Source: Acidobacteriota bacterium (GTDB lineage: Bacteria > Acidobacteriota > Blastocatellia > UBA7656). Taken from it: DNA of 64,000 bases. The notes under the pieces are model-generated. The model did no database searches, was not told the DNA's origin, and saw nothing but the letters and a program-made list of their open reading frames with translations. The stretch is from contig JBBPIG010000002.1 in NCBI GenBank assembly GCA_038040445.1, forward strand, positions 321,847-385,846, read 5' to 3'. Positions within the stretch are counted from its first letter, which is position 1; each line of letters begins with the position of its first letter. This document shows, one piece after another, positions 946 through 53,520 of this stretch. Made by a program: the position numbers and the translations under genes.

Positions 946-2289
946 TCAGCGCGTGGTCACACCCTCAGTGAGGGCGCGGTTGCTCGCGACTAGAAGCGCA
1001 CACAGCGGGTCCGCAGTCAGCTCGGACCATCGCACCGATTTAGGTGGATTGCTCGCGTTGTTCTGATTGTCTTCGGAGTTGTCGAAGTAGGCAATCACTT
1101 CGACTCGCGTGCCCTTAGGCAAGGCGACGGGCTGCTTGAAGTAATAGGTTGGCTCCCAGTCAAACTGATAGCCGCGAGTCCATATCAGCACTTCCTCCGA
1201 GCCATCGGGCCGGTATGCAGTCGCCTGAAGTGAAACGACCAGCGGATGCACGTTCGGGCGAATCGCGATTGCTTCTGTGTCGCCCGGCGTCGTGAACGAC
1301 AGCTTCAATCGATGAAACTCAGCGCCGACAGGAATGATTGCGTCAGGATTGGTGATTGCGAACTCCTGAACCTGTTTGCGCGGCGGAGTCTTTGCAAAGT
1401 AGAGGCCGACCGCGCTCACGTCTTTGCTTGCTTCGGCCGAGCCGCGATAGTGAATCTTGACTGCTATGCGAGAGCCGGCGGGCAGCAGCCGTGCGACACC
1501 ATCATCAAACCGGACCGTCTTCTGCCCTGGCATCCATGTCGCAAGCACTACCGCATTCGCTGGATCCGCAGGAGAGGCCGCTTCTTCGTTCTTGACAGGC
1601 ATCATCGGCGGCGGCTGCACGCCCACATTGTTTTTCAAAACGTACAGTGCCGCACAGTGGACCACTGATCCGTTGCCGGGTTGCAAATCAATTGCTGTCA
1701 ACCAACGGTCTTCTTTCAAGTGAGTCGGCAGTTCGAAGGTCCGGTACTGGTTGGCATCGGCCTCAATCTTCGATTCGATCTCCGGCTTGAGAATAAGATC
1801 GGGTGTGCCCAACTGCCAGTCATTCGAGAACAACGGGGCTGCCGGCAAGTCTTTATCGTCACCTTTGGGCGCGCCGCCTTCGACCCAATTAACTATCAAG
1901 TCTACGTCGCGTTGCGTCAGCGAAGGCGCGTTGCGGAATTCGCCGTAGCCTTTAGCCGCGGGCCACAGCGGCATTCGCTTCTCGAGAATTTCCTCTTTGA
2001 TGGCCTTCGCCCACGGGCGGGCTTCGTCGTAGGTAGCTAGCGACATAGCTATGCCGCCGGTGTGATGACATCCCAAACAACTCCGCTGCAAGGTGCGCAC
2101 GACTTCTTTGTTGAACCTGACTTTTGTCGTTATCGGCTCGTGCGCGGAAGTGAAGGCAAAAGGCAAAAGGCAAAAGGCAAAAGTAAGAACACTGAGCAAA
2201 GAGCGTCTGAGTGGGTGGGCCCGCGGCAGCCACGACGCCGAGCCTGGCGCCGCTACTTTTGCCTTTTGCCTTTTGCCTTTTGCCGTCAT
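946..2289 (-). CDS. Secreted c-type cytochrome / degenerate PHM-like copper protein (last gene of six-gene array)
   Basis: 447 residues. A c-type haem motif CLGCH (71-75) is followed by the same PHM-like two-domain module as the five upstream paralogs. The copper ligands are eroded: the paralogs' VVHH is VVHC, the HMH is reduced to NVH, and the Met of the EMM motif is gone (PLCALL). IHYRG keeps one His. Copper monooxygenase activity is therefore doubtful, although haem binding should persist. The first ~50 codons coincide with a perfect 31-bp inverted repeat: one arm encodes the Lys-rich n-region and the other the hydrophobic core FAFCLLPFAF of the signal peptide. No alternative in-frame ATG lies before the haem motif. 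It may have been recruited as an electron carrier or a structural partner. Confidence 0.8.
   Translation of the reverse strand: MTAKGKRQKAKVAAPGSASWLPRAHPLRRSLLSVLTFAFCLLPFAFTSAHEPITTKVRFNKEVVRTLQRSCLGCHHTGGIAMSLATYDEARPWAKAIKEEILEKRMPLWPAAKGYGEFRNAPSLTQRDVDLIVNWVEGGAPKGDDKDLPAAPLFSNDWQLGTPDLILKPEIESKIEADANQYRTFELPTHLKEDRWLTAIDLQPGNGSVVHCAALYVLKNNVGVQPPPMMPVKNEEAASPADPANAVVLATWMPGQKTVRFDDGVARLLPAGSRIAVKIHYRGSAEASKDVSAVGLYFAKTPPRKQVQEFAITNPDAIIPVGAEFHRLKLSFTTPGDTEAIAIRPNVHPLVVSLQATAYRPDGSEEVLIWTRGYQFDWEPTYYFKQPVALPKGTRVEVIAYFDNSEDNQNNASNPPKSVRWSELTADPLCALLVASNRALTEGVTTR
2155..2284. repeat. Foldback element, GGCAAAA heptamer family, inside a CDS
   Basis: Perfect 31-nt arms (2155-2185 and 2254-2284). 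Each arm is four tandem GGCAAAA heptamers plus GTA, with a 68-nt spacer. The element lies wholly within the 5' coding end of the degenerate cytochrome gene. A related but imperfect element is at 45534-45613. Confidence 0.9.
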
Positions 2290-2373
2290 ATTACTCGGGC
2301 CGACCCAACCGTGCAGGTTGAATCGGCCCTTTGATTCTAACCGAAAGTTCTAAGCGAGAGAATCAGACCGCTG

Positions 2374-3597
2374 CTACTGTTTGTTCTGGCTGACGTCGAC
2401 CTTGCTTTGCGGAGCGTCGACGGTGTAGCTCATCCAGCCGATCATCATCTCTTCCCAAGTCTGATCGCCCCAGCGCACTTCCTTCTTCGGATCGGGGTTA
2501 TACTTGTTCTTCTCCGAGTTGTCGAAGTGAGCAAGGCAGTCGATGCGCGTGCCCTTCGGCGCGGCCAATGTCTCTTTCAGCACATAGTAGGTCTGCCACG
2601 CAAAGTCATACTTCGGCACCGACAGCAGAACTCTCGTCGTGCCGTCCGGGAACGTCGCGCGAAACTCAAAGTCCTTACCGCGATAATGCATATGCGGCAT
2701 CAGAGAGTAGACGTGCGAGTCCTGAGTGAATGTGTAGGACGACTCGACGCGATAGTTCGGATCGCCCGGCGGAATCGCGAACCTTGCGTTCATAATCGGC
2801 CGCGTCATGATCTCGGCCTTTGGCGGCTCCTTCGAGAAAACGAATCCAACGTAAGACTTGTCCTTCGTTTCCGTCCCGTTCGGCGTGTAGTGAACCTGGA
2901 AGATCAGATCCGAGCCGGCGGGTATCTTGCGCGCGAGTCCTTTGCCGATTACCGCGGGCTGCTCGCCCGGCGCGTAGCCGACTATCAAGCGCTGCGGGTC
3001 TTTCGCGCTTTGGGCGAAGACGATTATATGATGCACGACGCCGCGTTCGCCCGGACGAATCTCGGCTGCTTGAATGTACATATCCTGTTTGAAGTTGGTT
3101 GGGACCTTGAAGTATTTGTACTCGACGACGCCGCTTGCAGGCACGGTGAATTCCTGAGGCAGATAGAAGACGACGTCCGGCTTGCCAATGTTCCACCCGC
3201 CTGCGAACTGCGGCGACGGTGGCAGGTCCCTGGGATTGCCTTCCTTCGCGCCTTGATCGACCCAGGTTACGATTGTGTCGATGTCCTTCTGCGAGAGCCG
3301 GCGGTCGTTCTCGAAAGTACCGTAGTGCGGGTCGGCGTGCCAGGGCGGCATCACACCGGTCGCGACCTTTTCTTTGATCGACTTCGCCCACGGCCGCGCG
3401 TCCTTGTAGCTCAACAGCGACATCGGCGCGATCTCGCCGGGTCGATGGCACCCTACGCAGTTGTTATTGAAGATCGGCGCGATGTCCTTAGCGAACGTAA
3501 CGTTGCTCTTCTTCACATCGGGACCGCTGGCTACAGCAACAGCACAGAAAGCTCCCAGGAAAAGAGCGGTGATCGAGGCTCCCAGAGTTCTTTTCAT
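2374..3597 (-). CDS. Secreted c-type cytochrome fused to PHM-like copper monooxygenase module
   Basis: 407 residues. The start is the ATG behind GGAGAGAAGG; an upstream in-frame ATG overlaps that ribosome site and is rejected. Signal peptide to about residue 24, then CVGCH (47-51) for covalent haem. Next come the signature ligands of copper type II ascorbate-dependent monooxygenases: HH (189-190), QVHY (H236), HMH (302-304) and EEMM near the C-terminus. In PHM/DBM these bind CuH and CuM. The shortest intact paralog of the array, and it lacks the glycine-rich insert present in the next three genes. Predicted periplasmic. Fusion to a cytochrome suggests electrons arrive through haem rather than free ascorbate (inference). 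Substrate unknown. Confidence 0.85.
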   Translation of the reverse strand: MKRTLGASITALFLGAFCAVAVASGPDVKKSNVTFAKDIAPIFNNNCVGCHRPGEIAPMSLLSYKDARPWAKSIKEKVATGVMPPWHADPHYGTFENDRRLSQKDIDTIVTWVDQGAKEGNPRDLPPSPQFAGGWNIGKPDVVFYLPQEFTVPASGVVEYKYFKVPTNFKQDMYIQAAEIRPGERGVVHHIIVFAQSAKDPQRLIVGYAPGEQPAVIGKGLARKIPAGSDLIFQVHYTPNGTETKDKSYVGFVFSKEPPKAEIMTRPIMNARFAIPPGDPNYRVESSYTFTQDSHVYSLMPHMHYRGKDFEFRATFPDGTTRVLLSVPKYDFAWQTYYVLKETLAAPKGTRIDCLAHFDNSEKNKYNPDPKKEVRWGDQTWEEMMIGWMSYTVDAPQSKVDVSQNKQ

Positions 3598-3715
3598 CCT
3601 TCTCTCCTTCGCTTCAAACAAGATACTTTGCCCTGGAAAATCATCGGGCGACCTTGGCGTCTAAGATACCGCAGTGAACGTCTGCATGCTACCGGATTGA
3701 TGACGAGCGCAAAGC

Positions 3716-5371
3716 CTATTTACCTGCGCCGCTCGAAGCTGTCTTGTTCACTCTCTTCGCGCGCAGCTTCATGCCATTGATCTCAAAGATAAGCTCGGTT
3801 ACGTCGCCCCGCTCATTCTTCACGAAGGTAACTTGCGCGTCGATGACCGTGAAAAAGAACTTGGTCTCGGATTCAGGGAACGCTTCCACCTTACCCTGTC
3901 CTGGCACCGAGAACATCAGCTTGTCGCCTTCCCTGATGATCGTGAAAAGCTGCGGGCCGATCGCGTATTCGCCCGCGTATGTGTCGTACGTCTTGAGGTC
4001 GATCTTCGCGACCTTGCGGGCTCGCGCCGCCGAGACGTAGTCGAAGTACCCGACCATCATTTCGTCATAGGTCGGGTCTCCAAATCGCACCGTCTTCGTA
4101 GGATCAGGGTTGTATTTGTTCTTCTCCGAGTTGTCGTAGTGAGCGGTGACCAGCATCTTCGTCCCTTTTGGAAGTAGGAGCGGTTTCTCGAGCTTGTACA
4201 ACGTCTGCCAGTTGAAGTCGTAATTGGGAACGAAGAGCACCGTCTCGCGCCTGCCGTCTGGATAGATCGCTTCGTATTTCATGTCCTTCCCACGCAGGTG
4301 CATGTGCGGAAGGAAGGTGAACAGCTCGACATCGCGGCTGAAGGTGTAACAAGCCTTGACCTCGTGGTTGTCGGCGCCCGCGGGAATCTTGAAGTAGTGA
4401 TTGATAACGCCGAACGACGTGAGCACTTTCTCGGGCGGACCCTTGGCGAAGAACAGCCCCACGCTGCTGCGGTCTTTCTCAACCTTGCCGGTCGTCTTCG
4501 AGTAATGAACCTGAAGGACTATATTCGAGCCAGCGGGAATCGACTTGGCCGTGCCCGGAGGAAACACATCCATATCTTTGCCGGGGGTGTAGAAGCACAA
4601 GGGGAACCCAAGACCTTCCTGGCCGCTGCCGCGAGCGAGCCCGCCGTTGGGCGCGCTGCAGCCGTCATCGTAGGCCGGCGCGTCCAGCTTCGCGCGAACC
4701 AACGTACCATCCTGATAGAAAATGGACTGGGCGCTTGGACGGCCCCCAGTGCTCTTCCATTGAGCCAGCATCTGCGGAGTCTGTATGAACGCGATGACGT
4801 GATGTACGACCTTCCTGTTGCCGGGATGAATCTCAGCGGCCTGAATCCACACATCCTCTTTGAAGCTGGTCGGCATAGTGAAGTTGATGTACTCGTCGGA
4901 ACCGCTGGCTTCGATGGTGTAATCCTCTTGCATCGAGAGAACTACATCGGGTTTCCCGATCTTCCAATCTGTGGGGAAGGTAGGCTGGGCCGGAAGGTCT
5001 TTTGCGCTGCCTTCTTTCGCTCCTTGATCGACCCAGGCGACGATCGTATCGATGTCCTGCTGCGTTAGCGTGCGGTCGTTCGAGAACTGACCGTAGTGCG
5101 GATCCGCGTGCCAGGGCGGCATCTGGCGAGTGACCACTTTCTCTTTGATCGAGCGGGCCCACGCCCTCGCGTCCTTGTAGGTCAGCAGCGACATCGGCGC
5201 CATATCGTTCGGCCGATGGCAGTCAGCGCAGTTCTTGTACAAGATCGGCGCGACGTCTTTCGTAAAGGTTACGGCCTTCTTCGAATCGCTCGCGTCGATC
5301 GTCGGTGAAAGAAGAAAACAAAACGCTGTTAAGGCTGTTCCGGCAAACAAGAGTGTAATCGCTTTCTTCAT
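3716..5371 (-). CDS. Secreted c-type cytochrome / PHM-like copper monooxygenase with extra C-terminal domain
   Basis: 551 residues, the longest of the six paralogs. Signal peptide, CADCH haem motif near residue 50, then RKVVHHVIAF, VHYSK, PHMHLRGKDM and DEMM, so all expected copper ligands are present. It differs by a C-terminal tail of about 85 residues (from DTYAGEYAIG onward) that resembles the small beta-barrel DUF3471-type domain often found after beta-lactamase-like proteins. Ribosome site GAGGAG before ATG. The 118-bp gap to the next gene and 142-bp gap to the previous one are compatible with one operon. The middle insert with paired Cys and Gly-rich segments is shared with the two genes upstream. 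Confidence 0.85.
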   Translation of the reverse strand: MKKAITLLFAGTALTAFCFLLSPTIDASDSKKAVTFTKDVAPILYKNCADCHRPNDMAPMSLLTYKDARAWARSIKEKVVTRQMPPWHADPHYGQFSNDRTLTQQDIDTIVAWVDQGAKEGSAKDLPAQPTFPTDWKIGKPDVVLSMQEDYTIEASGSDEYINFTMPTSFKEDVWIQAAEIHPGNRKVVHHVIAFIQTPQMLAQWKSTGGRPSAQSIFYQDGTLVRAKLDAPAYDDGCSAPNGGLARGSGQEGLGFPLCFYTPGKDMDVFPPGTAKSIPAGSNIVLQVHYSKTTGKVEKDRSSVGLFFAKGPPEKVLTSFGVINHYFKIPAGADNHEVKACYTFSRDVELFTFLPHMHLRGKDMKYEAIYPDGRRETVLFVPNYDFNWQTLYKLEKPLLLPKGTKMLVTAHYDNSEKNKYNPDPTKTVRFGDPTYDEMMVGYFDYVSAARARKVAKIDLKTYDTYAGEYAIGPQLFTIIREGDKLMFSVPGQGKVEAFPESETKFFFTVIDAQVTFVKNERGDVTELIFEINGMKLRAKRVNKTASSGAGK

Positions 5372-5447
5372 ACTAAGGCTCCTCTTCCCCTAGCCTAACG
5401 AGCCCGGCGGCGTCGCGCCAGTCTCCAGTTTCTCTCTTATACACTAC

Positions 5448-5486
5448 GCGCCGGCCACGGCAAAGCTTCTTTGCCGTGACCGGCGC
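5448..5486. repeat. Tight foldback hairpin (18-bp stem, 3-nt loop)
   Basis: Arms 5448-5465 and 5469-5486 (GCGCCGG..ACGGCAAAG) match with one mismatch around a CTT loop. The hairpin lies between two genes of the six-gene array. No T-run follows on either strand, so it is not a classic terminator; it could be an mRNA processing or stability hairpin, or a REP-like unit. Confidence 0.85.
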
Positions 5487-5513
5487 CCATTGTTCGCAGT
5501 GCTAGATTCAAGA

Positions 5514-6962: not shown

Positions 6963-7028
6963 TAGTCCCCTTTGCCGCGCTACGCGCAACCTCTGGTGAA
7001 TCGAAACAGCCGCGCGACCATCAAGCTA

Positions 7029-8462: not shown

Positions 8463-8526
8463 CTTCAAGCCCTCCCGAAGTTCCACTTCGTGTTTGCTTT
8501 GCGTCAGTGTCTCCACGACGACGGCG

Positions 8527-10848: not shown

Positions 10849-10863
10849 CGAGCTTTAGCGTAC

Positions 10864-12222: not shown

Positions 12223-12257
12223 CGCTCTCTTGCTTTTCTGTTTCTATTCTCGAGCAG

Positions 12258-13600: not shown

Positions 13601-13659
13601 CTTGGCGCCTTTGCGTCTTTGCGTTGAAGGCCTCACGCTCAGACGCAAAGCCGCAAAGA
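13601..13659. repeat. Foldback element, CTTTGCG family
   Basis: GCCTTTGCGTCTTTGCGT is followed 17 nt later by its near-complement GACGCAAAGCCGCAAAG. It is built from 7-8 nt quasi-tandem units, lies just downstream of the esterase stop codon (13670), and resembles the CTTTGTGCC arms at 46862-47020. Confidence 0.75.
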
Positions 13660-13669
13660 ACTAACTACG

Positions 13670-15117: not shown

Positions 15118-15173
15118 CGCTCAAACCTCCAAGTATCGATTCGAGTTCCCGGTTCAATCCCGGAGGGATGCCG

Positions 15174-15475
15174 GAATAAAGCCACGGGTGAGTCCGCGAA
15201 CCCGTGGGCCGTACGACAGCAAAGCTCCCGAACCCGCGTAGAGGGTGACGGTCAACGAAGCGGTTGCGACGGTGCAATGTTTGAGAAACACCGTCTTAAA
15301 GGAGTTAGGCGCGATGAGCGTGTTGGCCGCCACGCGCTTCGCGGGTTTGTCTGCCCACCTGACCCGATCCACGGGTTCGCGGACTCACCCGTGGCTTTAT
15401 TCCCCCACCCGCTTCGCGGGTTATCGTTGCCCCTTCCGCCTCACTCCACGGGTTCGCGGACTCACCCGTGGCTTT
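15174..15475. repeat. Cluster of three copies of a 30-34 nt palindromic unit
   Basis: 15174-15207 and 15369-15402 are perfect 34-nt inverted copies, and 15446-15475 is a third, 30-nt copy in direct orientation to the second. Each unit is itself a hairpin (CCACGGGT..ACCCGTGG). An extra small hairpin (ACCCGCTTCGCGGGT) sits between units. Arranged like REP/REPIN clusters; the whole 15118-15549 gap is non-coding. Confidence 0.9.
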
Positions 15476-15549
15476 GTACCGACACCCTTCCAGGGTTAAC
15501 TGCTCGGGCATCGTCCTCTGATTGACCAACAATCTCCGGCGTCGGTAAT

Positions 15550-18614: not shown

Positions 18615-18670
18615 TCGAGCATTGTAGTGACGAGGAGAGAGGCTTTCAACGAAAGGCTTTGCACCCGAAC

Positions 18671-18764
18671 AATGTTCGTAGTTCGGCCTTCAGGCGGAAG
18701 TTCGTAGGCTGGCTCTCTCGCAATGCCGTACAAACTTCCGCCTGAAGGCCGAACTACAAACATT
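18671..18764. repeat. Foldback element with 36-nt arms
   Basis: Arms 18671-18706 and 18729-18764 are complementary at 34 of 36 positions; both differences are C/T, keeping G-U pairing in RNA. Loop 22 nt. The core reads GGCCTTCAGGCGGAAGTT. It lies between the lipoxygenase-like stop and the MFS start. Confidence 0.92.
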
Positions 18765-18774
18765 GCTTGACCGA

Positions 18775-28631: not shown

Positions 28632-30221
28632 ATGCTTGAAACCGGTCAACAGGCTCCGAGCTTCTCTCTCACACGGCTGGATGGAAAAGCGTCTGAGTTT
28701 GAGAGTGGCCGTCAATCGAAGCCGCGCCTCGTTGTGTTTTTCGAGACGGATTGCCCGACCTGCCGGTTGACGATTCCTTATCTCAATCGCCTCTCGCGCG
28801 AGCTTGGCGAGGCATCGGACATTCTCGGCATATCTCAAGACGGTGAGCACCCGACGCGAGAGTTGGTCGAGCAAGCTCCGATAGAATTTCCGGTCGCGCT
28901 TGATCACGGCCTCAACGTCAGTAAGATTTATGACCCGGTGGCGGTGCCAACACTCTTCCTCATCGGCAGCGACGGCCACATCCTTCAAACTCTAAGCGGC
29001 TTTGATAAGCGCGCCTTGAATGAAATCGCGACGGCGATGGCCGGCGAACCACTCACAATAGCCGAGCCCTTCGACGGCGCGCCCGATACCAAGTTCGGAT
29101 GCACGTCCCGGCATCTTGAAGCTGGCTCCGAAGGGGACCTCGCAGCCGCAGCGAACCCTTACATCAAGCGAGCCGCGCGCGCTACGCGCATCGAGCTGGA
29201 CGACTCGATCGACCCTTTCGAGTACTGCATGGCGTTTGGCGATCCGCTGCCGGTGATTCCGCCGACCGTCGATCGAGTCGAGCGCATGCTCGCAGCCGCC
29301 TCGCCGTCGCCAGATGAAGTTATCGGGCTGATTCCGCCCAACTACGGAGCGGCAACCGTGGAAAAGATCGCCGCCAACGCAGTGATGGCAGGTTGCAAGC
29401 CAGAGATGATGCGCGTATTGATTCCGCTGGTGCGAGCCGTGTGCGATGAGCGCTTCAACATTCACGGTGTGCAGGCGACCACTCATTTCGCCGCGCCGCT
29501 CGTGATAGTCAACGGGCCGATTCGCGGCGAGCTGGGCTTCGCTTGTGCAAGCAACGTCTTCAGCAACGTCGCTCGCGCGAACAGCACGCTGGGCCGCGCG
29601 CTGCAGTTGGTATTGACCAATCTGGGAGGCGCGCGACCCGGCGAGATCGATATGTCCACGCTCGGAAACCCGGGCAAGTTCTCCTACTGCATCGCCGAAA
29701 ACGAAGAAGAGAATCCGTGGTTGCCTTTGCACGTCGAAATGGGTTTCAGGCGCGAGCAGAGCACCGTGACCCTGTTCGCCGCTGAACCGCCGCACGGTGT
29801 AAGCGAACATATGGCGCGTGAGGGAAAACAGATCTTGAAGGCAATCAGCCGCGCGCTTGCGACGGTGTGGTCATATCGGGTATGCGCGGGCGTCGAGGCG
29901 CTGGTAGTGCTTTGCCCCGAGCACGTGAAGACGCTTCATCGCGACGGCTTCACCAAGCAAGCCGTGCGCGAGTTCCTATTTGAGAACACCGGCATTCCGA
30001 TTCGAGACTATCAACACGGCGCAGGCGAAGGGACTCAGTATGTGAAGCTCTACAGGCAGGCAGTGATCGACGGCGAGCCCTGCTACTTGAAGTTTCCCGA
30101 CCGCGCGGCAATCAAGCTCGTGGTCGCCGGGGGAACCGCCGGCAAGTTTTCGGCGGTGATCGGCAGTTGGGCAGCCGGCCCAAGAGGAAGTCAGATGGTT
30201 ACGTACCCAATTGCGGTATAG
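28632..30221 (+). CDS. Thioredoxin-like domain fused to a large unknown domain (UGSC selenoprotein partner)
   Basis: 529 residues from ATG; a GTG five codons upstream abuts the SDR stop and is possible. Residues 1-~150 form a redoxin/TlpA-type fold with DCPTCRLTIPYL (CxxC at about 41-44) and VAVPTLFLIG with the cis-Pro. The remaining ~370 residues (from about FEYCMAFGDPLPVIPPTVDRV) are a separate conserved-looking domain with several Cys (GCKPEM, YCIAENEEENPW, CPEHVKTLH). I do not recognise its function. The position before the UGSC gene and the redox N-terminus suggest the two proteins work together, perhaps with the CxxC reducing the Sec or Cys centre. Cytosolic: no signal peptide. Confidence 0.75.
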   Translation: MLETGQQAPSFSLTRLDGKASEFESGRQSKPRLVVFFETDCPTCRLTIPYLNRLSRELGEASDILGISQDGEHPTRELVEQAPIEFPVALDHGLNVSKIYDPVAVPTLFLIGSDGHILQTLSGFDKRALNEIATAMAGEPLTIAEPFDGAPDTKFGCTSRHLEAGSEGDLAAAANPYIKRAARATRIELDDSIDPFEYCMAFGDPLPVIPPTVDRVERMLAAASPSPDEVIGLIPPNYGAATVEKIAANAVMAGCKPEMMRVLIPLVRAVCDERFNIHGVQATTHFAAPLVIVNGPIRGELGFACASNVFSNVARANSTLGRALQLVLTNLGGARPGEIDMSTLGNPGKFSYCIAENEEENPWLPLHVEMGFRREQSTVTLFAAEPPHGVSEHMAREGKQILKAISRALATVWSYRVCAGVEALVVLCPEHVKTLHRDGFTKQAVREFLFENTGIPIRDYQHGAGEGTQYVKLYRQAVIDGEPCYLKFPDRAAIKLVVAGGTAGKFSAVIGSWAAGPRGSQMVTYPIAV

Positions 30222-30295
30222 ACCGCGGATCAGACGGATTTGACCGATCTACACAGATCCGTGCCAAATCTGTCTGATCCGTCTAATCCGTGGTC
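30221..30295. repeat. Foldback element, ACGGATT family
   Basis: GACCGCGGATCAGACGGATT is countered by AATCCGTGGTC and GTCTGATCCGTC around a ~25-nt loop; about 20 of 25 positions pair. It fills the 96-bp gap between the thioredoxin-fusion stop (30221) and the ribosome site of the UGSC gene. Same family as the element at 34581-34685 (GTGGTCTAT / ATAGACCACGGAT). Confidence 0.8.
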
Positions 30296-32680: not shown

Positions 32681-32908
32681 AAAGGCAAAGAGCAAAGAGC
32701 AAAAGGTTCAGAGTTCAGGGTTCAGGGTTCGGAGTTCAGGGTTCAGAGTTCAGGCTCTAGCCTGGTTGTGCGTCGCAGGAGGAGGGTACTACCAGGCTAA
32801 AGCCTGAACTCTGAACCCGGAACTCTGAACCCGGAACTCTGAACCCAGAACTCTGAACCCTGAACTCCGAACCCTGAACTCCGAACCCTGAACTCCGAAC
32901 CCTGAACC
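32681..32908. repeat. Foldback element with expanded GAACTCTGAACCC tandem arm
   Basis: Left arm 32705-32765 (GGTTCAGAGTTCAGGG.. to CTAGCCTGG) is complementary to the right arm 32792-32908. The right arm is longer, built from repeated ~15-nt units of the kind GAACTCTGAACCC. The core GCTAAAGCCTGAACTCTG recurs at 53492-53513. A GCAAAGA repeat (32681-32703) flanks the left arm. Confidence 0.9.
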
Positions 32909-32962
32909 ATTTGCGTTTGTGCTACACTGCGTCGGAAATCAATCTGTGAGGATGGCTCACCG

Positions 32963-34580: not shown

Positions 34581-34685
34581 GCGAATCCGTCAAATCGGTG
34601 TGATCGGTGGTCTATGAGTTCGTGTAACAATCGCATTCCCATCGGTGTATAGACCACGGATGACACTGATTCGACCGATTTGCGC
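34581..34685. repeat. Foldback element, AATCGGT/ACGGAT family
   Basis: 34581-34615 (ending GTGGTCTAT) and 34649-34685 (starting ATAGACCACGGAT) form imperfect arms built from AATCGGT/ATCCGT units. It lies between the secreted hydrolase and the NUDIX gene and belongs to the same family as 30221-30295. Confidence 0.75.
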
Positions 34686-34742
34686 GGATACTGCACTAGT
34701 GAAGCGCATGTTACAGGCCATTAGAAACTCAACCAATACCCA

Positions 34743-35318
34743 ATGTACGTCTCCTCTGAAATCATTGTCGAGCTGGAAAAGAAATATGGACAGCCGGAGG
34801 AGCTTTCCCTCGCGTACGAAATGAACGAACGCGAGTTCGAGATCGTGCGCGGCAGCCAAAAGCACGGCCGGGCTCACGATGTGACTCTGTTCATAATAAA
34901 GGATGGCCGCATTGCCGTCATAAAAAAGCCGATGTATCCGCCAGGCGCATACCGCGCTCCGTCGGGAGGAATTGAGCCGGGCGAGCGGTTTGAAGAAGGA
35001 GCGCTGCGCGAGGCACACGAGGAGACCGGTCTGGTAGTCTCACTCGAAAAGTACATCGTGAGAGCGCGGGTGAGGTTTTCTCACGATGGTGGGTTAATCG
35101 ACTGGACCACTCACGTTCTTACGGCAAGTCAGATCGGAGGCGAGCTTCAGCCGATCGACACCCGCGAGATTGCCGAGGCGCGCTATGCGACGGTCGATGA
35201 GCTGAACGGCGGCATCAGAGACGCGTTGCTTGCAAGCGGCTCAACAGGTCTGAGATATCGATCAGAGTTGAACGACGTCGTGATGCGCAAATTGAGTGAA
35301 GAAGGCGTAGTGTCCTAG
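34743..35318 (+). CDS. NUDIX hydrolase
   Basis: 191 residues. The Nudix box is intact: GGIEPGERFEEGALREAHEETGL fits G-x5-E-x7-REUxEExGU, so Mg-dependent hydrolysis of a nucleoside diphosphate derivative is expected. About 60 residues precede the fold, and the substrate cannot be inferred. The Shine-Dalgarno is poor. The stop codon TAG is inside the left arm of a foldback element. Confidence 0.9.
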   Translation: MYVSSEIIVELEKKYGQPEELSLAYEMNEREFEIVRGSQKHGRAHDVTLFIIKDGRIAVIKKPMYPPGAYRAPSGGIEPGERFEEGALREAHEETGLVVSLEKYIVRARVRFSHDGGLIDWTTHVLTASQIGGELQPIDTREIAEARYATVDELNGGIRDALLASGSTGLRYRSELNDVVMRKLSEEGVVS

Positions 35319-35441
35319 TTTCAACTCTCTGCGCGATCTCGGCGTCCTCTGCGCCTCGGCGGTGAGGTTTTGCCACCAGTATTCAGCGCGGCGACGCAGA
35401 GAACGCAGAGGTTGCGCAGAGAATAGTTCAAACTAGGACAC
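35310..35441. repeat. Foldback element, GCGCAGAGAACGCAGAG family, overlapping a stop codon
   Basis: The outer parts GTGTCCTAGTTT (35310-) and AAACTAGGACAC (-35441) pair, then quasi-tandem CTCTGCG units pair with CGCAGAG units, 50-nt arms in all. The NUDIX stop codon lies in the left arm. A stop-overlapping hairpin could end transcription or protect the 3' end. Confidence 0.9.
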
Positions 35442-35555
35442 CACCTGGCTCCTTGTCATCTTCAACATCAATCAAGCCTCTGATATAATCCAAGTGAATC
35501 GACCGCGATAACCTATTCAATCCTAAATCGGGTTCCGACTTGTGAAGGAGTTGCT

Positions 35556-37070: not shown

Positions 37071-37187
37071 CATTGGTCATTTTCCATTTGTCATTTCCAT
37101 TTTCCATGTGTGACTGTTTGCCATTCGCCGCAGCAGTCCCGTGAGCAATGACAAATGAGAAATGGAAAATGGAAAATGATAAATGGT
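37070..37187. repeat. Foldback element, GGAAAAT family
   Basis: Left arm (CATTTTCCATTTGTCATTTCC...) and right arm (AAATGGAAAATGGAAAATGA...) are complementary over ~38 nt with register slips, as expected of short quasi-tandem units. It begins at the stop codon of the HtrA gene. Confidence 0.85.
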
Positions 37188-38105: not shown

Positions 38106-38219
<114 letters not shown>

Positions 38220-42533: not shown

Positions 42534-42626
42534 ACTTCTAATCCTGTAAGGAGGTATCGTACCTTCGCTATACGCCTCAACGTACATTTCGAAGAAGCAG
42601 TAGTCAAGCCGAGCACCTGCCAACAG

Positions 42627-44990: not shown

Positions 44991-45016
44991 AAGGAGTTCG
45001 TGTCTTCATCCGCAGT

Positions 45017-45091
45017 GTACCGTAGACTGTCCAGTCTGCGGCGCCGAGTAATCTTGAAAAATAAATCCGCAGACTGGACAGTCTACGGTAC
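45017..45091. repeat. Foldback element, perfect 25-nt arms
   Basis: 45017-45041 and 45067-45091 are exact inverted copies (GTACCGTAGACTGTCCAG..) around a 25-nt loop. The arm holds a smaller palindrome AGACTG/CAGTCT. It lies exactly between the NosL-like stop (45099) and the DsbD start (44990). Confidence 0.95.
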
Positions 45092-45098
45092 CTCCCGA

Positions 45099-45617
45099 TC
45101 ACTTCCTCACGTCGCGAGCCATCTCCCCGGTCACTTCATTGAGCGACAACACCGTTCCCCCGTTCGCGCCAACAAACGTTTCGGCGTCCTCACGCTTCCC
45201 GAACGGCAGGAAGTCCGGTCCCATCGGTCCCTCGACCCTGCTCTTGTAAACAAACTTCGCCTCTCGAGCATCGACCGTTTGCTTTGACTGATAGTCCTTC
45301 ACCGTGATCCGTTCAATGTTAGCGCGATCTTTGTGCGCGTCGCCGGCGTCGTAACTATTCGGAGATGTGTAGAGCGCAAGCATGTCTCCCGGCGATTCAA
45401 ACATCAGCTTCTTTCCATCGTTGTAATAGATCTCAGCCGCCCAATTGTCAGACACATTGACCTTCATACGGCAGACGGGACAATACCCGGAAGTCGCGCC
45501 TGCCGGAACCGCGTCTCCGCGACCGGCCCCACAAGAAGTAAAAAGTAAAAAGGCAAAGGGCAAAAGTAAGAGCGCTCTTCCCTTTTTCCTTTTTACTTTT
45601 GCCTTTTTACTTGTCAT
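45099..45617 (-). CDS. NosL-like copper-binding lipoprotein
   Basis: 172 residues. Lipoprotein signal ending LLFTSCG (lipid Cys 29), then YCPVCRMKV (C46, C49, M51), the copper-binding motif of NosL, with [14 protein letters not shown] and [20 protein letters not shown] further on. NosL supplies Cu(I) to nitrous-oxide reductase; no nos genes are here, so a different copper client is likely, e.g. the six haem/copper proteins (inference). Its ATG overlaps the mnmA stop (ATGA). The signal peptide is encoded by a GGCAAAA-type foldback element. Confidence 0.85.
45534..45613. repeat. Foldback element, (A)GTAAAAAGGCAAA family, encoding a signal peptide
   Basis: Left arm AAGTAAAAAGTAAAAAGGC.. and right arm ..GCCTTTTTACTT pair imperfectly with register slips. 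The element lies inside the NosL-like CDS and encodes its Lys-rich n-region and hydrophobic core. Related to 2155-2284. Confidence 0.85.
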
Positions 45618-46708: not shown

Positions 46709-46861
46709 TGCTTGCCTGATCTTTGCTCGCGCGCTTACGCGATGCTATCATTCCGGTTCGTTATACGCTCAGTTAATAGTGCATGCCGGGCTCAAAGCTA
46801 AGAATTATACACAACGCCGAAGCATCGCGGAAAGGAACGACCGATAATCGCGAGACTCAAC

Positions 46862-47020
46862 CACAAAGGCACGAAGACACTAAGGCACCTGGGAGCGCAG
46901 GCATCCGTGCCTGCCTCGTTTCACTATGGCTATCTTCTTTTCAAAACGCCTCTCGCACAAGAACAAGCAGGCAGGGATGCCTGCGCTCCCAGGTCGTCTT
47001 AGTGTCTTTGTGCCTTTGTG
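46862..47020. repeat. Nested foldback: CTTTGTGCC arms enclosing the GGGAGCGCAGGCATC family
   Basis: Outer arms CACAAAGGCACGAAGACACTAAG / CTTAGTGTCTTTGTGCC.. flank inner arms CCTGGGAGCGCAGGCATC / GATGCCTGCGCTCCCAGG (46889-46907 and 46977-46995). The inner family also occurs alone at 38110-38219. The element ends 18 nt before the cbbQ-like ATG. Confidence 0.95.
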
Positions 47021-47038
47021 TTTGATCCCCAACCTGAT

Positions 47039-47863
47039 ATGACTGCAGATCAAGCCACGGTAGAACAAGCAATAGAGAAACACGTCATCAGCCGGGAACC
47101 ATACTACCTGCCGGCCGGCGAAGAGGTCGGGCTGTTCGAAGCGGCATACCGCGCGAAGCTTCCGGTCATGCTCAAGGGTCCAACCGGCTGCGGCAAGACT
47201 CGGTTCATCGAATACATGGCCTGGCGCTTGAATCGGCCATTGATCACGGTCGCCTGCCACGAAGACTTGTCAGCAACTGACCTCGTGGGCCGCTTCCTGT
47301 TGGAAGGCGACGAGACCGTGTGGCATGATGGACCGCTCACCACCGCAGTCAAGTACGGTGCGATTTGCTACCTTGACGAAGTTGTCGAAGCACGCAAGGA
47401 CACGATAGTTCTCATCCACCCTCTAACGGACGACCGCAGGATCTTGCCGGTCGAAAAACGCGGCACAATACTGCAAGCGCCCGAGGAGTTCATGCTGGTT
47501 GTGTCATACAACCCGGGTTATCAAAGCGTGCTCAAGGATCTGAAGCAATCAACCCGGCAGCGTTTCGTCGGGCTCGAGTTCGATTATCCGCCCGCTCACC
47601 TCGAAGCCGATGTTTTGATGCACGAGGGCAAAGTCGATGCGCAGACCGCGCGCGATCTGGTGTTGATCGGCGAGAAGGTGCGCAATCTGAAAGGCCACGG
47701 GCTCGAGGAAGGCGTATCTACAAGATTGCTGGTCTACGCCGCGCAGCTAGTCAGCAGCGGCATTCATCCCCACCTGGCGTGTGAGGTTGCGATAAGCAGC
47801 CCGATAACGGACGACGTCGAGCTCCAACGCAGCATCCGCGAGATAGTGACTACCGTGATTTGA
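47039..47863 (+). CDS. MoxR-type AAA ATPase, CbbQ/NirQ/NorQ family
   Basis: 274 residues. Walker A GPTGCGKT (47-54), Walker B YLDEV (111-115), [18 protein letters not shown] insertion and a C-terminal [19 protein letters not shown] lid, all CbbQ/NorQ-like. These ATPases act with a VWA partner (CbbO/NorD) to remodel metalloenzymes such as Rubisco or NO reductase. No VWA gene is adjacent, so this is an orphan. An upstream in-frame GTG lies in the foldback element; the ATG at 47039 is preferred. The Shine-Dalgarno is weak. Confidence 0.9.
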
Positions 47864-48061
47864 CTCGCGATCGGCTGGTGACTTCCCCGCGCTCGCCTGA
47901 CTCACAGGCAGATCGTCGCCTTTCGCCTGCCGTGGCCCAACCCGAAGTGCGACCGTAGTTGACAGTGATGATAGAATTCCGACCGGCTGCGGGCGCAAGA
48001 AACTTCCCTTACACTGAATCGAACAAGGATGCCCCGAATCAACTGAGGAGGAGGTCGGTCT

Positions 48062-49429
48062 ATGTTGCAGACAAGAGCCAGCCGCTGGACGTTTGGTTTG
48101 TTCGGATGTTTCGCGCTTGCGATTGCGTGTGCCGCCACCGCTAACGCGCAGAACAATCCTCAACCTAGAGTTGTCGGTTTTCCGGTTACGGTCGCCGGTG
48201 GTGCGCCTAGATTGGACCCGACAGCCACGGCGGGCCTCGGGGATAGAGTCAGCGTCCGGGTTGAAGCGTGGCCGTCCTGTTCGGAACCGCAGGCTTCGAT
48301 GCCGGCTCCTCAGAGCGCCGCCAACACGAGTCAACCGGCTTCGCCTCCCAACAACAATTCGGCAAGTCAGACCGGCGATCAAAACAGTGTGCCGTACGGC
48401 GAGGAGCCGAGCTGGATTCCGGGACTCACCCACGCTCAAGTGCTCAAACTCGTCCCTTACTTGAATGCCAGGCCTCTAACCGGCTTATATCCGGAAACCG
48501 TCGATCCCGGAAGCCACACCCTCACCTTTCACCTTAGGCGGACTCCAGCTTCGAAGGAAGCGTGGACTGATTTGCTGAGCAATCCTGGTTTCGAGCCGCG
48601 CGTGATGACATTCAGCGTCGGTCTTGAAGACAAGCAGCAGTTCCCAACTTGCGTAGCCAAATTCAACCTCGTCGTCATTCCGGTAAAATGGTTCGTAGTC
48701 GCAATGGCTCTCTTCCTGGTCGTGCTGTACATCTTCTTTCGACTCGCCGCAGGCACAGCTTTGCTTCGCGATCCAGGCATCAGCCAGGGCTACATGCCCG
48801 GCTTCTCTGTTTTGTGGCGGCGCGGATCCGCGGACACCAGGCTCGGCCCTTTCAGCCTCGCCCGCACTCAGATGGCATTCTGGTTCTTCATGGTCATCGG
48901 CGCTTTCGTTCTCATCTGGATGATTACCGGGAACACCGACACGATAACGGAGGGCGTTCTTGTGCTTATCGGCATCAGCGCAGGCACGGCGCTTGGAGCG
49001 ACGGCAATAGATTCGGGCAAGCGCAATACAACAACGACCCGGCCGCGGCCCGGCGACGAATCGAAGGGCTTGCTCAACGACCTCCTCGGCGACGGGACGG
49101 GCATCACCTTTCACCGTTTTCAGATCGTAGTCTGGACCATCGTACTCGGCCTGGTCTTCGCCAGAAGCGTTATGAGCCATCTGGCAATGCCGGAGTTTGG
49201 CACGAGCCTTCTTACTCTGATGGGGATAAGCTCAGGGACATATCTGGGCATGAAGCTACCGGAACAGCAGGCCCCCGAGTCCCCTCCCGTCGGCGGGCAG
49301 ACACAAAGCGGTGCCGGCGGAGCGGCCGGCAGCCCAGATCAAAAAGACCAGCAAGGTCAGCAGAACGGAGACGAAGCGGATAAGGCCGGGCAAAAGCCTG
49401 AGTCGGCTGAGCAGGCGGCTCAGGGCTGA
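48062..49429 (+). CDS. Unknown membrane protein with duplicated transmembrane module
   Basis: 455 residues. Signal peptide (to TANAQ), an extracytoplasmic domain of ~180 residues, then five membrane helices (~210-233, 275-300, 305-330, 365-385, 393-412) and a polar Gln/Gly-rich tail. The pairs LIGISAGTALGATAI and LMGISSGTYLGMKLP mark an internal duplication of a two-helix unit. I do not recognise the family; no catalytic motif visible. Starts at an ATG after GGAGGAGGTC. Confidence 0.7.
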   Translation: MLQTRASRWTFGLFGCFALAIACAATANAQNNPQPRVVGFPVTVAGGAPRLDPTATAGLGDRVSVRVEAWPSCSEPQASMPAPQSAANTSQPASPPNNNSASQTGDQNSVPYGEEPSWIPGLTHAQVLKLVPYLNARPLTGLYPETVDPGSHTLTFHLRRTPASKEAWTDLLSNPGFEPRVMTFSVGLEDKQQFPTCVAKFNLVVIPVKWFVVAMALFLVVLYIFFRLAAGTALLRDPGISQGYMPGFSVLWRRGSADTRLGPFSLARTQMAFWFFMVIGAFVLIWMITGNTDTITEGVLVLIGISAGTALGATAIDSGKRNTTTTRPRPGDESKGLLNDLLGDGTGITFHRFQIVVWTIVLGLVFARSVMSHLAMPEFGTSLLTLMGISSGTYLGMKLPEQQAPESPPVGGQTQSGAGGAAGSPDQKDQQGQQNGDEADKAGQKPESAEQAAQG

Positions 49430-49577
49430 TAGACACTCCGTTGTAGTTTGCTATCGATAGGAGACCGCGACGCAGTCAGCGCAACCGGCGTGGCGCGCGC
49501 GCGAAAGCCAGGCCCCCCCCGACAACAAGGACCTTTCTAAGACGGTGTATGATGTGTGCGTGCGATGTGATACTCAA

Positions 49578-49695
49578 GCTCGTGGTCGGGAAGGGTGGCT
49601 TGCCCCCGCGTGGTCAATGCTGAGGAATACACCGCTGTGAGTCTAGAAGAGGCTTAGGAGGCAGCGGGGGCAAGCCACCCTTCCCGACCGCGAGC
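49578..49695. repeat. Foldback element with 32-nt arms
   Basis: 49578-49609 and 49664-49695 pair at 31 of 32 positions (core GGGAAGGGTGGCTTGCCC), loop 54 nt. It lies in the 400-bp gap after the membrane protein. Confidence 0.95.
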
Positions 49696-49836
49696 CTGAG
49701 CGAATGGCTATCTTGTAATTGCCGGTCAAAGTGTGCAACTTTGTAGCTGTGTCCTGCGGCCCCTTTTCCGCGTGCAAGCTAGTGGCGCGCCGCCGGCTGA
49801 GCAGGGGCGCAGTCGAGTTGTCGCAGTTGAGTAGTA

Positions 49837-50064
49837 ATGATAAAAGGTCAGAAGGCATGGATCAGGATTCGCGGAGCGCCGGATGACCCTGAGTCGTTCG
49901 ATCTCGCCGTCTGGAACGGAATTGTGTGGGAAGTTCCCCGCGTCAATTCATTGGGCGACACTATTCATATCCAAATCCCTGACTACATTGTTGTTGAGAC
50001 AATGCCTGCCTCGAGTAAGCCTGAAGACCTCTATCGCAAAGTAAAGAGCGAGCGCGAAAGGTGA
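49837..50064 (+). CDS. Small hypothetical protein
   Basis: 75 residues, MIKGQKAWIRIRGAPDDPESFDLAVWNG.. then an alternating strand pattern and charged C-terminus (KVKSERER). No clear Shine-Dalgarno, no recognised domain. The regular strand spacing and low bias suggest a real gene, but weakly. Confidence 0.4.
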   Translation: MIKGQKAWIRIRGAPDDPESFDLAVWNGIVWEVPRVNSLGDTIHIQIPDYIVVETMPASSKPEDLYRKVKSERER

Positions 50065-50214
50065 GGTAGAATCTACCCGCCCATCCGTAGAATTGAAGAT
50101 CCAGCAATGCCACTCGATCCAGAAGCCTCCGTCGTCTGTCGCGGCACAAGCGGCGTTGCCACCGTCCACGAAAAAGCCGACCCGGACCTGGCTACGAAAC
50201 GCAACTCGAGATCC

Positions 50215-53200
50215 TCAAAAACTGACCCGCGCGCCTAACTGAAAAGCCCGCGGGCCGCCGGAGCCAAAGACCTGGCTAAATCGCGCGCCGGGCTGACCGA
50301 ACTCCGCGCTATTGCCGATGTTGCCACTGTAGCCGACCAGGTTGGCAGTGTTCAGAAAATTGAATACCTCGCCCAACACCATGAGGCTCACACGCTCTCT
50401 GCCGAGCGGGAACGTGCGGCTTATGCGCAGGTCCTGCGTGAAGAAGCTGTCGTTGAAAGTATAATCAGCGGGCAGCGTCACACGCGGAGCGGGCTGTCCG
50501 CCGAGGGTTTGTTTGCCGGCAAACTCCTGGTTATAGCTATCGACCAACTGCGCCAGGTCATCACGGTCCCTCCCCCGATTGAACTGATTCACTCTCGTCC
50601 CCGGCAGCAGATCGTTTACGCTGCCGTCGCCGTTGAAATCTACTCCGCTCACAAAGGCCGAGAACGGCGGCCGGCTGTAGGCGGATAAATTGAAGGAGAC
50701 TTGAAACCGCCAGGGCAGGTCGACGAAGCCGGAGAGATTCAGGACGTGGCGCAGATCGGTCGCCAGCGGACCGTAGTTCTCGAACCAGTCGTCGTTGTTG
50801 AATCCAGTGCCAGGTTCCTGGTTACCGGGTCCGTTGCTTCCCTTGAAGCTGCCCAGCGCGTAGGAGACCAGAAACTGTGTCCGGCGCGAGAAGCGCTTTT
50901 CAACTCTCACGAGCAGCCCCTTGTACTGGGCGATGCCTGTGGTGTTGTCAAACGTGATCTGCCCCGCGGAACAGATTGCGGCCAGATCGTTCCGCTGGGT
51001 GGGGGTGCACGACGGAATCACCGGGGTTCGCACACCGTTGATTCGGCGGTTGAAGTGGTTGTAGTCGATTCCTCCGAGGAACGTGTGAAGGAATCGCCGC
51101 CAGGCAAAGTCGGCCGACAGAACCAGATCGCGGGCTATCTCCCGCTGCACGCCTACGTTGAGGTGCAAAGCGTACGGGGCTTCATAAAGCGGATCGTACA
51201 AATTTGAACCCGCCTTGTCGAGATCGAGGTTGCGGAAAGTGAAATCACGGTTGTCCGGGTTGCGTTGTTGCAGCAACTTCGCGCGAATGCCTGGCAGGAT
51301 GTTTTGCAGATCAGCGCCGGTAAAAGCGGTGGGGCTTTGGAAATCCAGCGCCCGGCCATCAAGGAAGATGCCGGTGCCTGAAATATTTGTCCTTCGGCCC
51401 GTACCTGCCGGCGACAGTGCCAGACGCTCTCGTTCTAAATTGAGTCCGTTGAAGCTGACAGGGTCGAAGTAACGGCCCGCGCCCCCACGAATCACCGTCT
51501 TGCCATCACGTGTCGCCGCCCACGCAAATCCTACAGTAGGCGAGAAGTTATCTTTCTGCGCAACAGGAGGACCAAGACCGTCCGGGCCAAGGATCGCCGT
51601 CAAGAGTTTGGGCTTCGAGAGATCTGTATTGAGACTGTTCGGTTCGTAAGACCAGGCCAGACCATAGTTCACAGTCAGGCGCGAGTCGATGCGCCACGTG
51701 TCGGCCGCATAGAGGCGGTAAAGATCCAGATGGCGGCGCTTGCGAAAGTCACGCTGGGGAGTCAAGCCCGGTCCAATGCCGGTCAAGAGACTACGGAGAG
51801 AAAGCCGGAGAATGTCATCTAGCGTCGAGAATGATGACGGCAGAGGAATCTGCGCCGAGGGCGCCGCCGTCGTATTGAACCGCCGCACCTCCTCCGGCGA
51901 ATATAGCTGAATCGTTGCGGGCTCATTAGTGATCAATTGGGTTGAAGTGGCAGCGTGCTCCCAATCAAAGCCGAAGCGGAGACTGTGATTACCGCGCTGC
52001 CACGCCAGGCTCTCGGTCAACTGATAGCGGCGTCCGACGAAAGAAAACCCTCGCGCCTGGCCGAACGATACCTCCGCATCCGCAATGTTGATGCGCGGGA
52101 CTCCCACACCCAAACAACCGGGACAGTCCTCGGCGGTTGCGGGCGTTTCTCCAGTGCTGACGAAAAAGTAAGAGAAGCGCAGATCATTGACGAGGCCAGG
52201 TGACAAGACGCTCGTGATTCCACCAATACTCTGATCCACCCAGTTCTTGACGCGCGACCAGGCCGAAGGCAGCGTATTGCTGTTGCCCTCGTTGGGACCA
52301 AAAAGACTGTTGCCGTCGTGAGTGTAACGGATGAAGGCGTTGTGGTCCTGGTTCAGACGAACATCGAAGCGCACGTTGAATTGATTGCCGAGAAAAGGAC
52401 TGGGAAAGACTCCCCCGAGCGGCGCAAACTCGGAAGTGCGCGGCTGGACCGAGAAGACGCCCCTCTGGTCGTTGCGCTCGTAGCTAGTGAAGAAGAAGGC
52501 GTGGTCGCGGGCGATCGGGCCGCCGAGATGATAGCCGAACTGGCTCCGTTGGAAGAAAGGGTCAGGGTTGTTCGGGTCACGCTGTAGACCTGGGTCGGCG
52601 GCCAGGGTATGGTCTCGATAAAAGTAGAATCCGCTGCCGTGAAACTCGTTGCCGCCGGAGCGCGTCACAATATTGATCGCGCCGTTGGTCGTCAGGCTGG
52701 TCGAAAGATCGAAGTTGACAGTCGAGAGTTGAAACTCCTGCACGACCTCCTGGGAGATTTGCAGGATAGCGCTGAGGTTGCCAATGGTGACGATGTTTGC
52801 GCCGTCTACGGTGACGCGGGTGTTTCCGATGCGCGGGGCTACAAAAACACCTGTGCCGAGCACCGGCACAAAGACGCGGTTGTTCGTGGACGGGGTCGCG
52901 TTGGTCACGCCCGGTTCCAGCTTTGCAAGGTCCAGAAAGTTTCTCCCGTTGAGTGGCAGGTTCTCAATTTGATTGCGGCTGACCAGGCCGCCAACCTGAT
53001 GGCCGTCATAATGGATTAGCGGAGTGACACTGCTGACCGTTATGTTTTCGGTTATCCCGATCTGGACCTGAAGATTGACGGTGGTAGTCGTCCCGGCCTC
53101 GACGGTGGCCGTGCGTTCCAGGACGCTAAACCCCATTGCTTCTGCCGTCACCTGATAATCACCTGGGGGCAGCGCCACCGCGCTGTAATCGCCTTCCGCA

Positions 53201-53382
53201 GAGGTGGTGAGGTTCCTGCTCAGCCCGGTTGCGCGATTGGTGATGGTGATGCGCGCTCCGGCCACGACTGCGCCGGTCGCGTCGGTCACAACTCCGGTGA
53301 TTGTTCCGGTCGGCGCTTGCGCGTGGGCCACACCGACTGTCCCCAACGCCACCAGTAGAAGCATTGATTGAATCTTGCTCAT
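50215..53382 (-). CDS. TonB-dependent receptor with carboxypeptidase-regulatory-like domain (Oar-like)
   Basis: 1055 residues. Signal peptide to AHAQ, then a CarboxypepD-reg-like domain (GTITGVVTDATGAVVAGARITIT..., ~25-110), plug domain (~115-230), and a long beta-barrel ending in ..GARVSF, with the terminal aromatic expected of outer-membrane proteins. Imports or exports large ligands powered by TonB, or acts in surface assembly (Oar); ligand unknown. Ribosome site weak. Preceded by the kinase cluster on the same strand. Confidence 0.92.
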   Translation of the reverse strand: MSKIQSMLLLVALGTVGVAHAQAPTGTITGVVTDATGAVVAGARITITNRATGLSRNLTTSAEGDYSAVALPPGDYQVTAEAMGFSVLERTATVEAGTTTTVNLQVQIGITENITVSSVTPLIHYDGHQVGGLVSRNQIENLPLNGRNFLDLAKLEPGVTNATPSTNNRVFVPVLGTGVFVAPRIGNTRVTVDGANIVTIGNLSAILQISQEVVQEFQLSTVNFDLSTSLTTNGAINIVTRSGGNEFHGSGFYFYRDHTLAADPGLQRDPNNPDPFFQRSQFGYHLGGPIARDHAFFFTSYERNDQRGVFSVQPRTSEFAPLGGVFPSPFLGNQFNVRFDVRLNQDHNAFIRYTHDGNSLFGPNEGNSNTLPSAWSRVKNWVDQSIGGITSVLSPGLVNDLRFSYFFVSTGETPATAEDCPGCLGVGVPRINIADAEVSFGQARGFSFVGRRYQLTESLAWQRGNHSLRFGFDWEHAATSTQLITNEPATIQLYSPEEVRRFNTTAAPSAQIPLPSSFSTLDDILRLSLRSLLTGIGPGLTPQRDFRKRRHLDLYRLYAADTWRIDSRLTVNYGLAWSYEPNSLNTDLSKPKLLTAILGPDGLGPPVAQKDNFSPTVGFAWAATRDGKTVIRGGAGRYFDPVSFNGLNLERERLALSPAGTGRRTNISGTGIFLDGRALDFQSPTAFTGADLQNILPGIRAKLLQQRNPDNRDFTFRNLDLDKAGSNLYDPLYEAPYALHLNVGVQREIARDLVLSADFAWRRFLHTFLGGIDYNHFNRRINGVRTPVIPSCTPTQRNDLAAICSAGQITFDNTTGIAQYKGLLVRVEKRFSRRTQFLVSYALGSFKGSNGPGNQEPGTGFNNDDWFENYGPLATDLRHVLNLSGFVDLPWRFQVSFNLSAYSRPPFSAFVSGVDFNGDGSVNDLLPGTRVNQFNRGRDRDDLAQLVDSYNQEFAGKQTLGGQPAPRVTLPADYTFNDSFFTQDLRISRTFPLGRERVSLMVLGEVFNFLNTANLVGYSGNIGNSAEFGQPGARFSQVFGSGGPRAFQLGARVSF

Positions 53383-53430
53383 CGTCTTACTTCATATAGA
53401 CGTAATAGCGGAACGTAATTCCGCAGAGTT

Positions 53431-53520
53431 ATTCAAAGTTCAGACCTAGAGTTCAGAGTTCGACCTTTAGGTTGCTGGTGCCGCTGGCAAGCTAAAGCTT
53501 GAACTCTGAACTTTGAACCT
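53431..53520. repeat. Foldback element, GTTCAGAG family (copy 2)
   Basis: Right arm CTAAAGCTTGAACTCTGAAC (53492-53511) pairs with the left arm, which has an extra 13-nt repeat unit. Same core as 32792-32908. The right end touches the stop codon of the kinase gene. Confidence 0.85.

Follow-up and report, generated by a model that had tools for sequence, protein, structure and literature searches.

Foldback elements of an acidobacterial genome: RAYT-linked palindromes and heptanucleotide repeats that may evolve by template switching

A stretch of 64,000 nucleotides from an Acidobacteriota bacterium (Blastocatellia, UBA7656; assembly GCA_038040445.1, contig JBBPIG010000002.1, positions 321,847–385,846), referred to here as the window, contains some sixteen foldbacks (inverted repeats) of many sequence families, which raises the question of what these elements are and how they are maintained. 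The foldbacks are probably two superimposed populations: repetitive extragenic palindromes (REPs) and their inverted pairs (REPINs), moved by REP-associated tyrosine transposases (RAYTs), and foldbacks built of 7-nt words (heptads) that are not linked to RAYTs. The window corresponds to G000:C2:321847-385846 of a genome (G000) of 6.75 Mb in 72 contigs, of which 846 kb were sampled. Inverted repeats were scored strictly and without gaps, third-order Markov shuffles served as the null model, and the gene positions used for stop-codon distances are our own calls based on open reading frames (ORFs).

At a score of at least 18 the window holds eight foldbacks and 20 shuffles hold none; this shuffling, proposed in an earlier sequence-only reading as a possible refutation, gave no foldbacks of comparable strength, so the density is not due to chance. 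At a score of at least 15 there are 98 foldbacks in the 846 kb (about 7.4 per 64 kb) and 10 in the window, so their abundance is a genome-wide property and the window is ordinary. Inverted repeats lie at all sixteen positions listed in that reading, exactly or within about 20 nt, and the recurring families it described are real, with 2–23 copies each in 846 kb vs. 0–4 in shuffled sequence; fifteen of the sixteen belong to dispersed families, the exception being a lone hairpin at 5448. Almost all foldbacks (94 of 98) are intergenic, although intergenic DNA accounts for 18% of the sequence, and 48% of the stop-side element edges are within 20 nt of a stop codon as compared with 7.7% under random placement.

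Such proximity to stop codons is compatible with RNA 3′-end structures (terminators or mRNA stabilizers) maintained by selection and gene conversion between arms, and so is the element at 45017, with arms perfectly conserved in a sister species while the spacer drifts. This explanation, also raised in the sequence-only reading, is nevertheless very unlikely: terminator-like T-runs follow 1 of 94 foldbacks (0.9 expected by chance), loops have a median of 37 nt, neither the sequence nor the presence of the elements is conserved with the gene, and an Rfam scan of the window returned two tRNAs and no other match. Intrinsic terminators were rejected on the same T-run counts and long loops, the elements differing from a GC-rich, short-loop hairpin followed by a T-run.

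The elements of the window are given below by window position; none is assigned to a strand. G001 is the sister species, the only other member of the genus (about 75–80% nucleotide identity to G000), whose orthologous sites were compared; other G and L numbers denote further genomes and loci.

2155–2284: heptad foldback, unit GGCAAAA, perfect 31-nt arms and 68-nt spacer.
5447–5486: lone hairpin of no repeated family (3 matches in 846 kb vs. 2 in shuffled sequence), left out of the finding.
13604–13658: foldback of the CGCAAAG/GACGCAAAG family, period about 8–9, 14 copies in 846 kb; a RAYT link was looked for and none was found.
15156–15497: three clustered AAGCC-CACGGGT...ACCCGTGG palindromes resembling the TAGCC-tagged terminal inverted repeats (TIRs) that flank IS200-like Y1 TnpA (TIRYT) genes of relatives.
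18670–18765: REPIN, inverted pair of a GTAGT tag plus CGGCCTTCAGGCGG hairpin; cognate RAYT at G000:C2:30091.
30219–30295: foldback of the ATCCGTGGTCTAT / ACGGATCAGACGGAT family, 16 copies; a RAYT link was looked for and none was found.
32684–32921: composite foldback with GGCAAAR heptads outside, GTTCAGR heptads inside and a REP-like hairpin, CAGGCTCTAGCCTG, at the core.
34585–34689: foldback of the ATCCGTGGTCTAT family; site empty in G001, occupied by GGCAAAA heptads in G005.
35307–35444: element of about 140 nt like a miniature inverted-repeat transposable element (MITE), TIR GTGTCCTAGTTTCAAC, inner arms CTCTGCG; site empty in G001, which has three copies elsewhere.
37078–37171: CATTTTC/CATTTGT heptad foldback; a GTCATTN heptad foldback at the same site in the sister species.
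38110–38219: REPIN of the CTGGGAGC-GCAGGCATCCTGCCTGC family; same family at the G001 site, cognate RAYTs in G021, G025, and G263.
45017–45091: REPIN-like, CCGTAGACTGTCCAGTCTGCGG; orthologous G001 arms identical, spacer diverged; RAYT cognate (L234) by resemblance only.
45534–45612: GGCAAAA/GTAAAAA heptad foldback.
46862–47020: nested pair, CACAAAGGCACGAAGACACTAAG arms outside and a GGGAGCGCAGGCATCC REPIN inside (46887–46994); a GTTCAGAGTACC REPIN at the sister-species site.
49573–49700: REPIN of the GTCGGGAAGGGTGGCTTGCCCCCG family; RAYTs of G001 (L199) and G220 (L220) are flanked by the same sequence; no element at the G001 site.
53451–53511: REPIN of the GTTCAGAGTTC plus hairpin family; cognate RAYTs in G001, G005, G019, and G031.

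Two of these, at 46862 and 32681, had been taken for single foldbacks; both are present, but the former is two elements, one in the spacer of the other, and the latter is a composite. The TIR ends of the element at 35307 are related to those of a MITE of about 220 nt (TIR GTAGTGTCCTAATCTTGTGTTG) with at least three copies in the genome (G000:C2:37359-37578, C2:105829-106041, and C3:327739-327961).

REPs and REPINs consist of a short tag and a small hairpin arranged as an inverted pair; RAYT-type Y1 (HUH) transposases move them in single-stranded form. The evidence supports the assignment of about half of the foldbacks to such elements. Seven Y1_Tnp matches occur in G000, one of which is a RAYT above the NF047646 cut-off (C2:30091, HUH-Y1 family; 81–83 bits, cut-off 80). 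On both sides of this gene lies an inverted pair of GTAGT-C-CCGCCTTCAGGCGG, which belongs with 18670, and the flanking REPIN holds three copies of the tag. In related genomes both sides of RAYT genes carry GTTCAGAGT(T/A)C plus a hairpin (G001, G005, and G031, diverged in G019), corresponding to the families of 32681 and 53451; CTGGGAGCGC(A/G)GGC... (G021, G025, and G263), the family of 38110 and 46887; or GGGAAGG(G/T)(T/G)GGCTTGCC (G001 and G220), the family of 49573. Copies within 500 bp of RAYT/Y1 genes vs. distal copies number 12/4 and 8/2 for family b, 8/0 for c, 10/8 for d and 12/0 for j, the distal sequence being 4.3 times the near sequence; as the loci were chosen for their RAYTs, the counts show association and not genome-wide enrichment.

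A REP-type Y1 transposase, one of the mechanisms suggested from the sequence alone, is thus supported for the hairpin-cored families, whose exact sequences are found on both sides of RAYT genes, but not for the heptad foldbacks. Likewise, the description of the elements as unlike REPs in not being one family was correct in that the families are many and mistaken in that several of them are REPs or REPINs. Biologically this class is of a known kind, its tags and diversity being unusual. The canonical GT[AG]G tag marks the base of the hairpin in families c and h and, by reading, seems to be missing from b, d, and j. The sister species retains RAYTs for two families that are orphaned in G000; several RAYT–REP lineages probably once coexisted, with some RAYTs since lost from G000.

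Other features of these loci can be mentioned. ORFs with two tandem Y1_Tnp domains (282–466 aa) occur in G000 (C4:67876-68655, L027), G002 (C80), and G006 (C279, C290, and C533), that of G000 being flanked by CCACCAACTGCGTTGGTGGGATT foldbacks. Many Y1/RAYT genes of G002, G005, G006, and G007 sit at contig ends, which suggests that assembly is interrupted at the repeats beside them. In an Oscillochloris genome, a foldback with 28-nt arms and ATGCAAC-like heptads is located within a RAYT-like locus (L375:1519-1576).

The second class is dominated by a period of seven. Tandem Repeats Finder (TRF) reported 77 arrays of period 7, 31 of period 14 and 13 of period 21 in the 846 kb, against 1–2 at periods 5–6 and 13 at period 8. 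The words include GGCAAAA, GTTCAGG, CATTTTC, GCGTGAT, GTAGTCC, GACGACC, GGATTTT, GGTTTCT, and AAAATTG among others; some foldbacks of this class are built of 8–11-nt words instead. An inverted partner is present within 250 bp for 79 of the 122 heptad arrays (65%) vs. 20 of the 140 arrays of other periods, and 102 of the 122 are intergenic. Composite arrays switch words in register (e.g., GGTTCAG then GGTTTCT at C3:370797). The quasi-tandem units of 7–15 nt proposed earlier therefore describe part of the elements, with 7 nt as the core period, and do not fit the rest, and the families are not all unrelated, since some heptad families merge gradually, in register, inside a single array. Both classes nest in each other's spacers and occupy one intergenic niche (46862–47020; C2:112227; C3:10896).

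Could the heptads be REPs as well? All families might be REPs or REPINs moved by RAYTs or IS200-like Y1 enzymes, in trans or by enzymes since lost, the heptads being tags multiplied by slippage that have lost their hairpin. GTAGTCC and GTTCAGA heptads do serve as tags of RAYT-cognate REPs, the REPIN beside the RAYT of G000 has its three tag copies, and the Y1-free relatives G014 and G026 contain no foldbacks in 185 kb. We nonetheless find this proposal doubtful, as GTTCAGG, GCGTGAT, and CATTTTC arrays do not flank RAYTs (near/far counts of 0/19, 0/4, and 0/3, respectively) and heptad arrays come in a continuous range of lengths, their ends not being fixed. Thirty RAYT loci from 22 GCGTGAT-bearing genomes showed other REPs or none and no GCGTGAT heptad flanks, and a search of about 125 RAYT loci and more than 60 Y1 loci returned no RAYT cognate of the heptad, CACAAAGG or ATCCGTGG families. 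Of 297 genomes in the phylum, 8 contain GTTCAGR arrays (149 matches in G000, 1207 in G009, and 10 in G144), while the reversed control pattern gave no match in these positive genomes; G009 and G144 have no RAYT at E ≤ 1e-15, which also speaks against movement by RAYTs. Overall, 6 of the 8 positive genomes have a RAYT vs. 169 of the 297, with no clear association.

Heptad foldbacks are not confined to this phylum. An exact 30-base GCGTGAT foldback pattern has at least 119 matches, mostly in Chloroflexota and some in Verrucomicrobia, where by our own calculation about 1e-5 would be expected by chance in the collection. Phage carriage was searched for, and GCGTGAT and GGGAGCGCAGGC foldbacks had no exact match in viral contigs. 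In the heptad arrays of G000 and of L237–L355 the units vary unevenly, and among GCGTGAT units 71% of the differences concentrate in two neighboring positions (CGTGA + NN); a universal rule of five fixed and two free positions is not claimed, as GCGTGAT fits it and GTTCAGG does not. At Chloroflexota loci such as L245/L257 and L251/L292, GCGTGAT foldbacks often occupy the interval from a stop codon to the following ATG, a position in which they might influence the start of translation.

Comparison with G001 shows that a site can keep a foldback while its sequence is replaced. At 12 compared sites both genomes have a foldback, with arm identities of 0.78–1.0 within a genome; between genomes, arm identity is 0.45–0.76 at 7 of the 12, i.e., a different family, although the values are rough for four sites where the G001 arms are short (9–12 nt). 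Examples (G000/G001) are GTTCAGG/AGGCGGA at 32684, CATTTTC-CATTTGT/GTCATTN at 37078 and AATTGAA/GGGGTTG at C3:121487. A similar change is found in Chloroflexota, where a GATTAGA-type foldback (L260) corresponds to a GGTAATT-type one (L247) between flanks 92 and 85% alike. Sites 3′ of stop codons could instead be insertion hot spots at which lineages independently gain different elements, matched arms reflecting recent insertion only. The strong stop-codon bias and the empty G001 sites at 34585, 35307, and 49573 are in keeping with this; however, several sites share remnants or register (outer GGCAAAR units at 32684, a CATT core at 37078, and the same right boundary at C2:106919). The shared GGCAAAR units and the in-register word switches of composites argue against pure re-insertion, and insertion does not yield the spacer inversion described below, so that hot spots appear an unlikely explanation overall.

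In 4 of 14 GCGTGAT orthologue pairs of Chloroflexota the spacer is reverse-complemented (L245/L257, where CCTCACGGG becomes CCCGTGAGG; L246/L314; L247/L260; and L331/L347), with 0 of 2000 shuffles as good in each case. Two further sites of L251/L292 fit inversion, one exactly (GGTCATTCCGG to CCGGAATGACC) and one probably, by reading only, giving 5–6 of about 16 orthologue cases. Flank identities of the inverted pairs are about 79–94%, and orientation is retained in those pairs whose flanks are most alike. According to published work (PMC8604942), template switching between short inverted repeats has two results, homogenized arms and inverted spacers; their joint occurrence supports template switching for the heptad foldbacks, and for these only, of the elements to which the sequence-only reading had applied it. 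A site-specific invertase could also flip spacers, although none is indicated.

The second class thus looks like heptanucleotide repeats that were turned into foldbacks and are maintained by template switching. Direct heptad arrays would probably arise by slippage, and a template switch at a stalled fork might then copy an array in inverted orientation to form the foldback. Further switches from arm to arm would preserve their match, flip the spacer, and allow both arms to be converted to a new word, so that the sequence is renewed in a hairpin that stays at its site; loops may also accept new elements, yielding nested, symmetric composites. Words might reach hundreds of loci and other phyla by Y1 trans-mobilization, ectopic template switching, or horizontal transfer, each a candidate route. 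A stronger and tentative proposal, which we consider rather unlikely, is to regard heptad foldbacks as enzyme-free replicators of DNA, self-complementary arrays of 7-nt words that stall forks and are copied between arms and loci by template switching, keeping shape and site but not sequence and recurring across phyla without a dedicated transposase. Several points weigh against template switching as the whole account, beside the possible invertase: the same heptad words at more than 100 loci and across phyla need a dispersal route beyond local switching; the lack of both classes in Y1-free genomes (a sample of 185 kb from two small genomes) also fits RAYT/Y1 enzymes moving heptads in trans; and same-site family change could reflect independent insertion beside stop codons.

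These results distinguish palindromes driven by transposases from a second population, apparently sustained by errors of replication. Heptanucleotide repeats, a puzzle recognized by 2007 at the latest and unevenly distributed among phyla, gain a concrete and testable mode of evolution in which shape is kept and sequence replaced. On this view, sites of this kind should not be judged by sequence conservation, and a multitude of unrelated families does not require a multitude of transposons.

Among known systems, the first class resembles the REPtrons formed by REP/REPIN elements and RAYT (TnpA-REP) genes (Di Nocera 2013, PMC3733652; PMC6006769) in its multicopy intergenic inverted pairs of small tagged hairpins flanking an HUH-Y1 RAYT gene. 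It differs in that several tags appear not to be GT[AG]G (GGAGC, GTTC, GGAA), many families coexist in one genome with a single extant NF047646 RAYT, and in some elements the tag is repeated in increments of 7/14 nt. Also described are the TIRYT/TIRtron elements found in Acidobacteria (PMC3733652) and, among TnpA-Y1 genes, a class 3 of atypical structure (PMC6006769). TIRYTs are IS200-like Y1 genes with long TIRs, which the 15156–15497 cluster resembles; that one cluster fits by resemblance, whereas most families have other partners or none.

Cyanobacterial short tandemly repeated repetitive (STRR) sequences are heptanucleotide repeats of a like kind. Heptanucleotide long simple sequence repeats (LSSRs) and TAACTGA repeats have been known since Mrazek 2007, as cited in PMC4679880; such repeats are 7-nt intergenic tandem words, patchy across phyla and near start/stop codons, with slippage proposed as their origin. 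They are reported as direct repeats (one inverted case among 170 TAACTGA sets), whereas here 65% form foldbacks, and matched arms, spacer inversion, and same-site word replacement are features of the present elements. Quasipalindrome template-switch mutagenesis (PMC8604942, PMC8794818) shares arm homogenization and spacer inversion with the heptad foldbacks, but it is known as an occasional class of mutation at short inverted repeats, while here it would maintain long, repeat-built foldbacks genome-wide.

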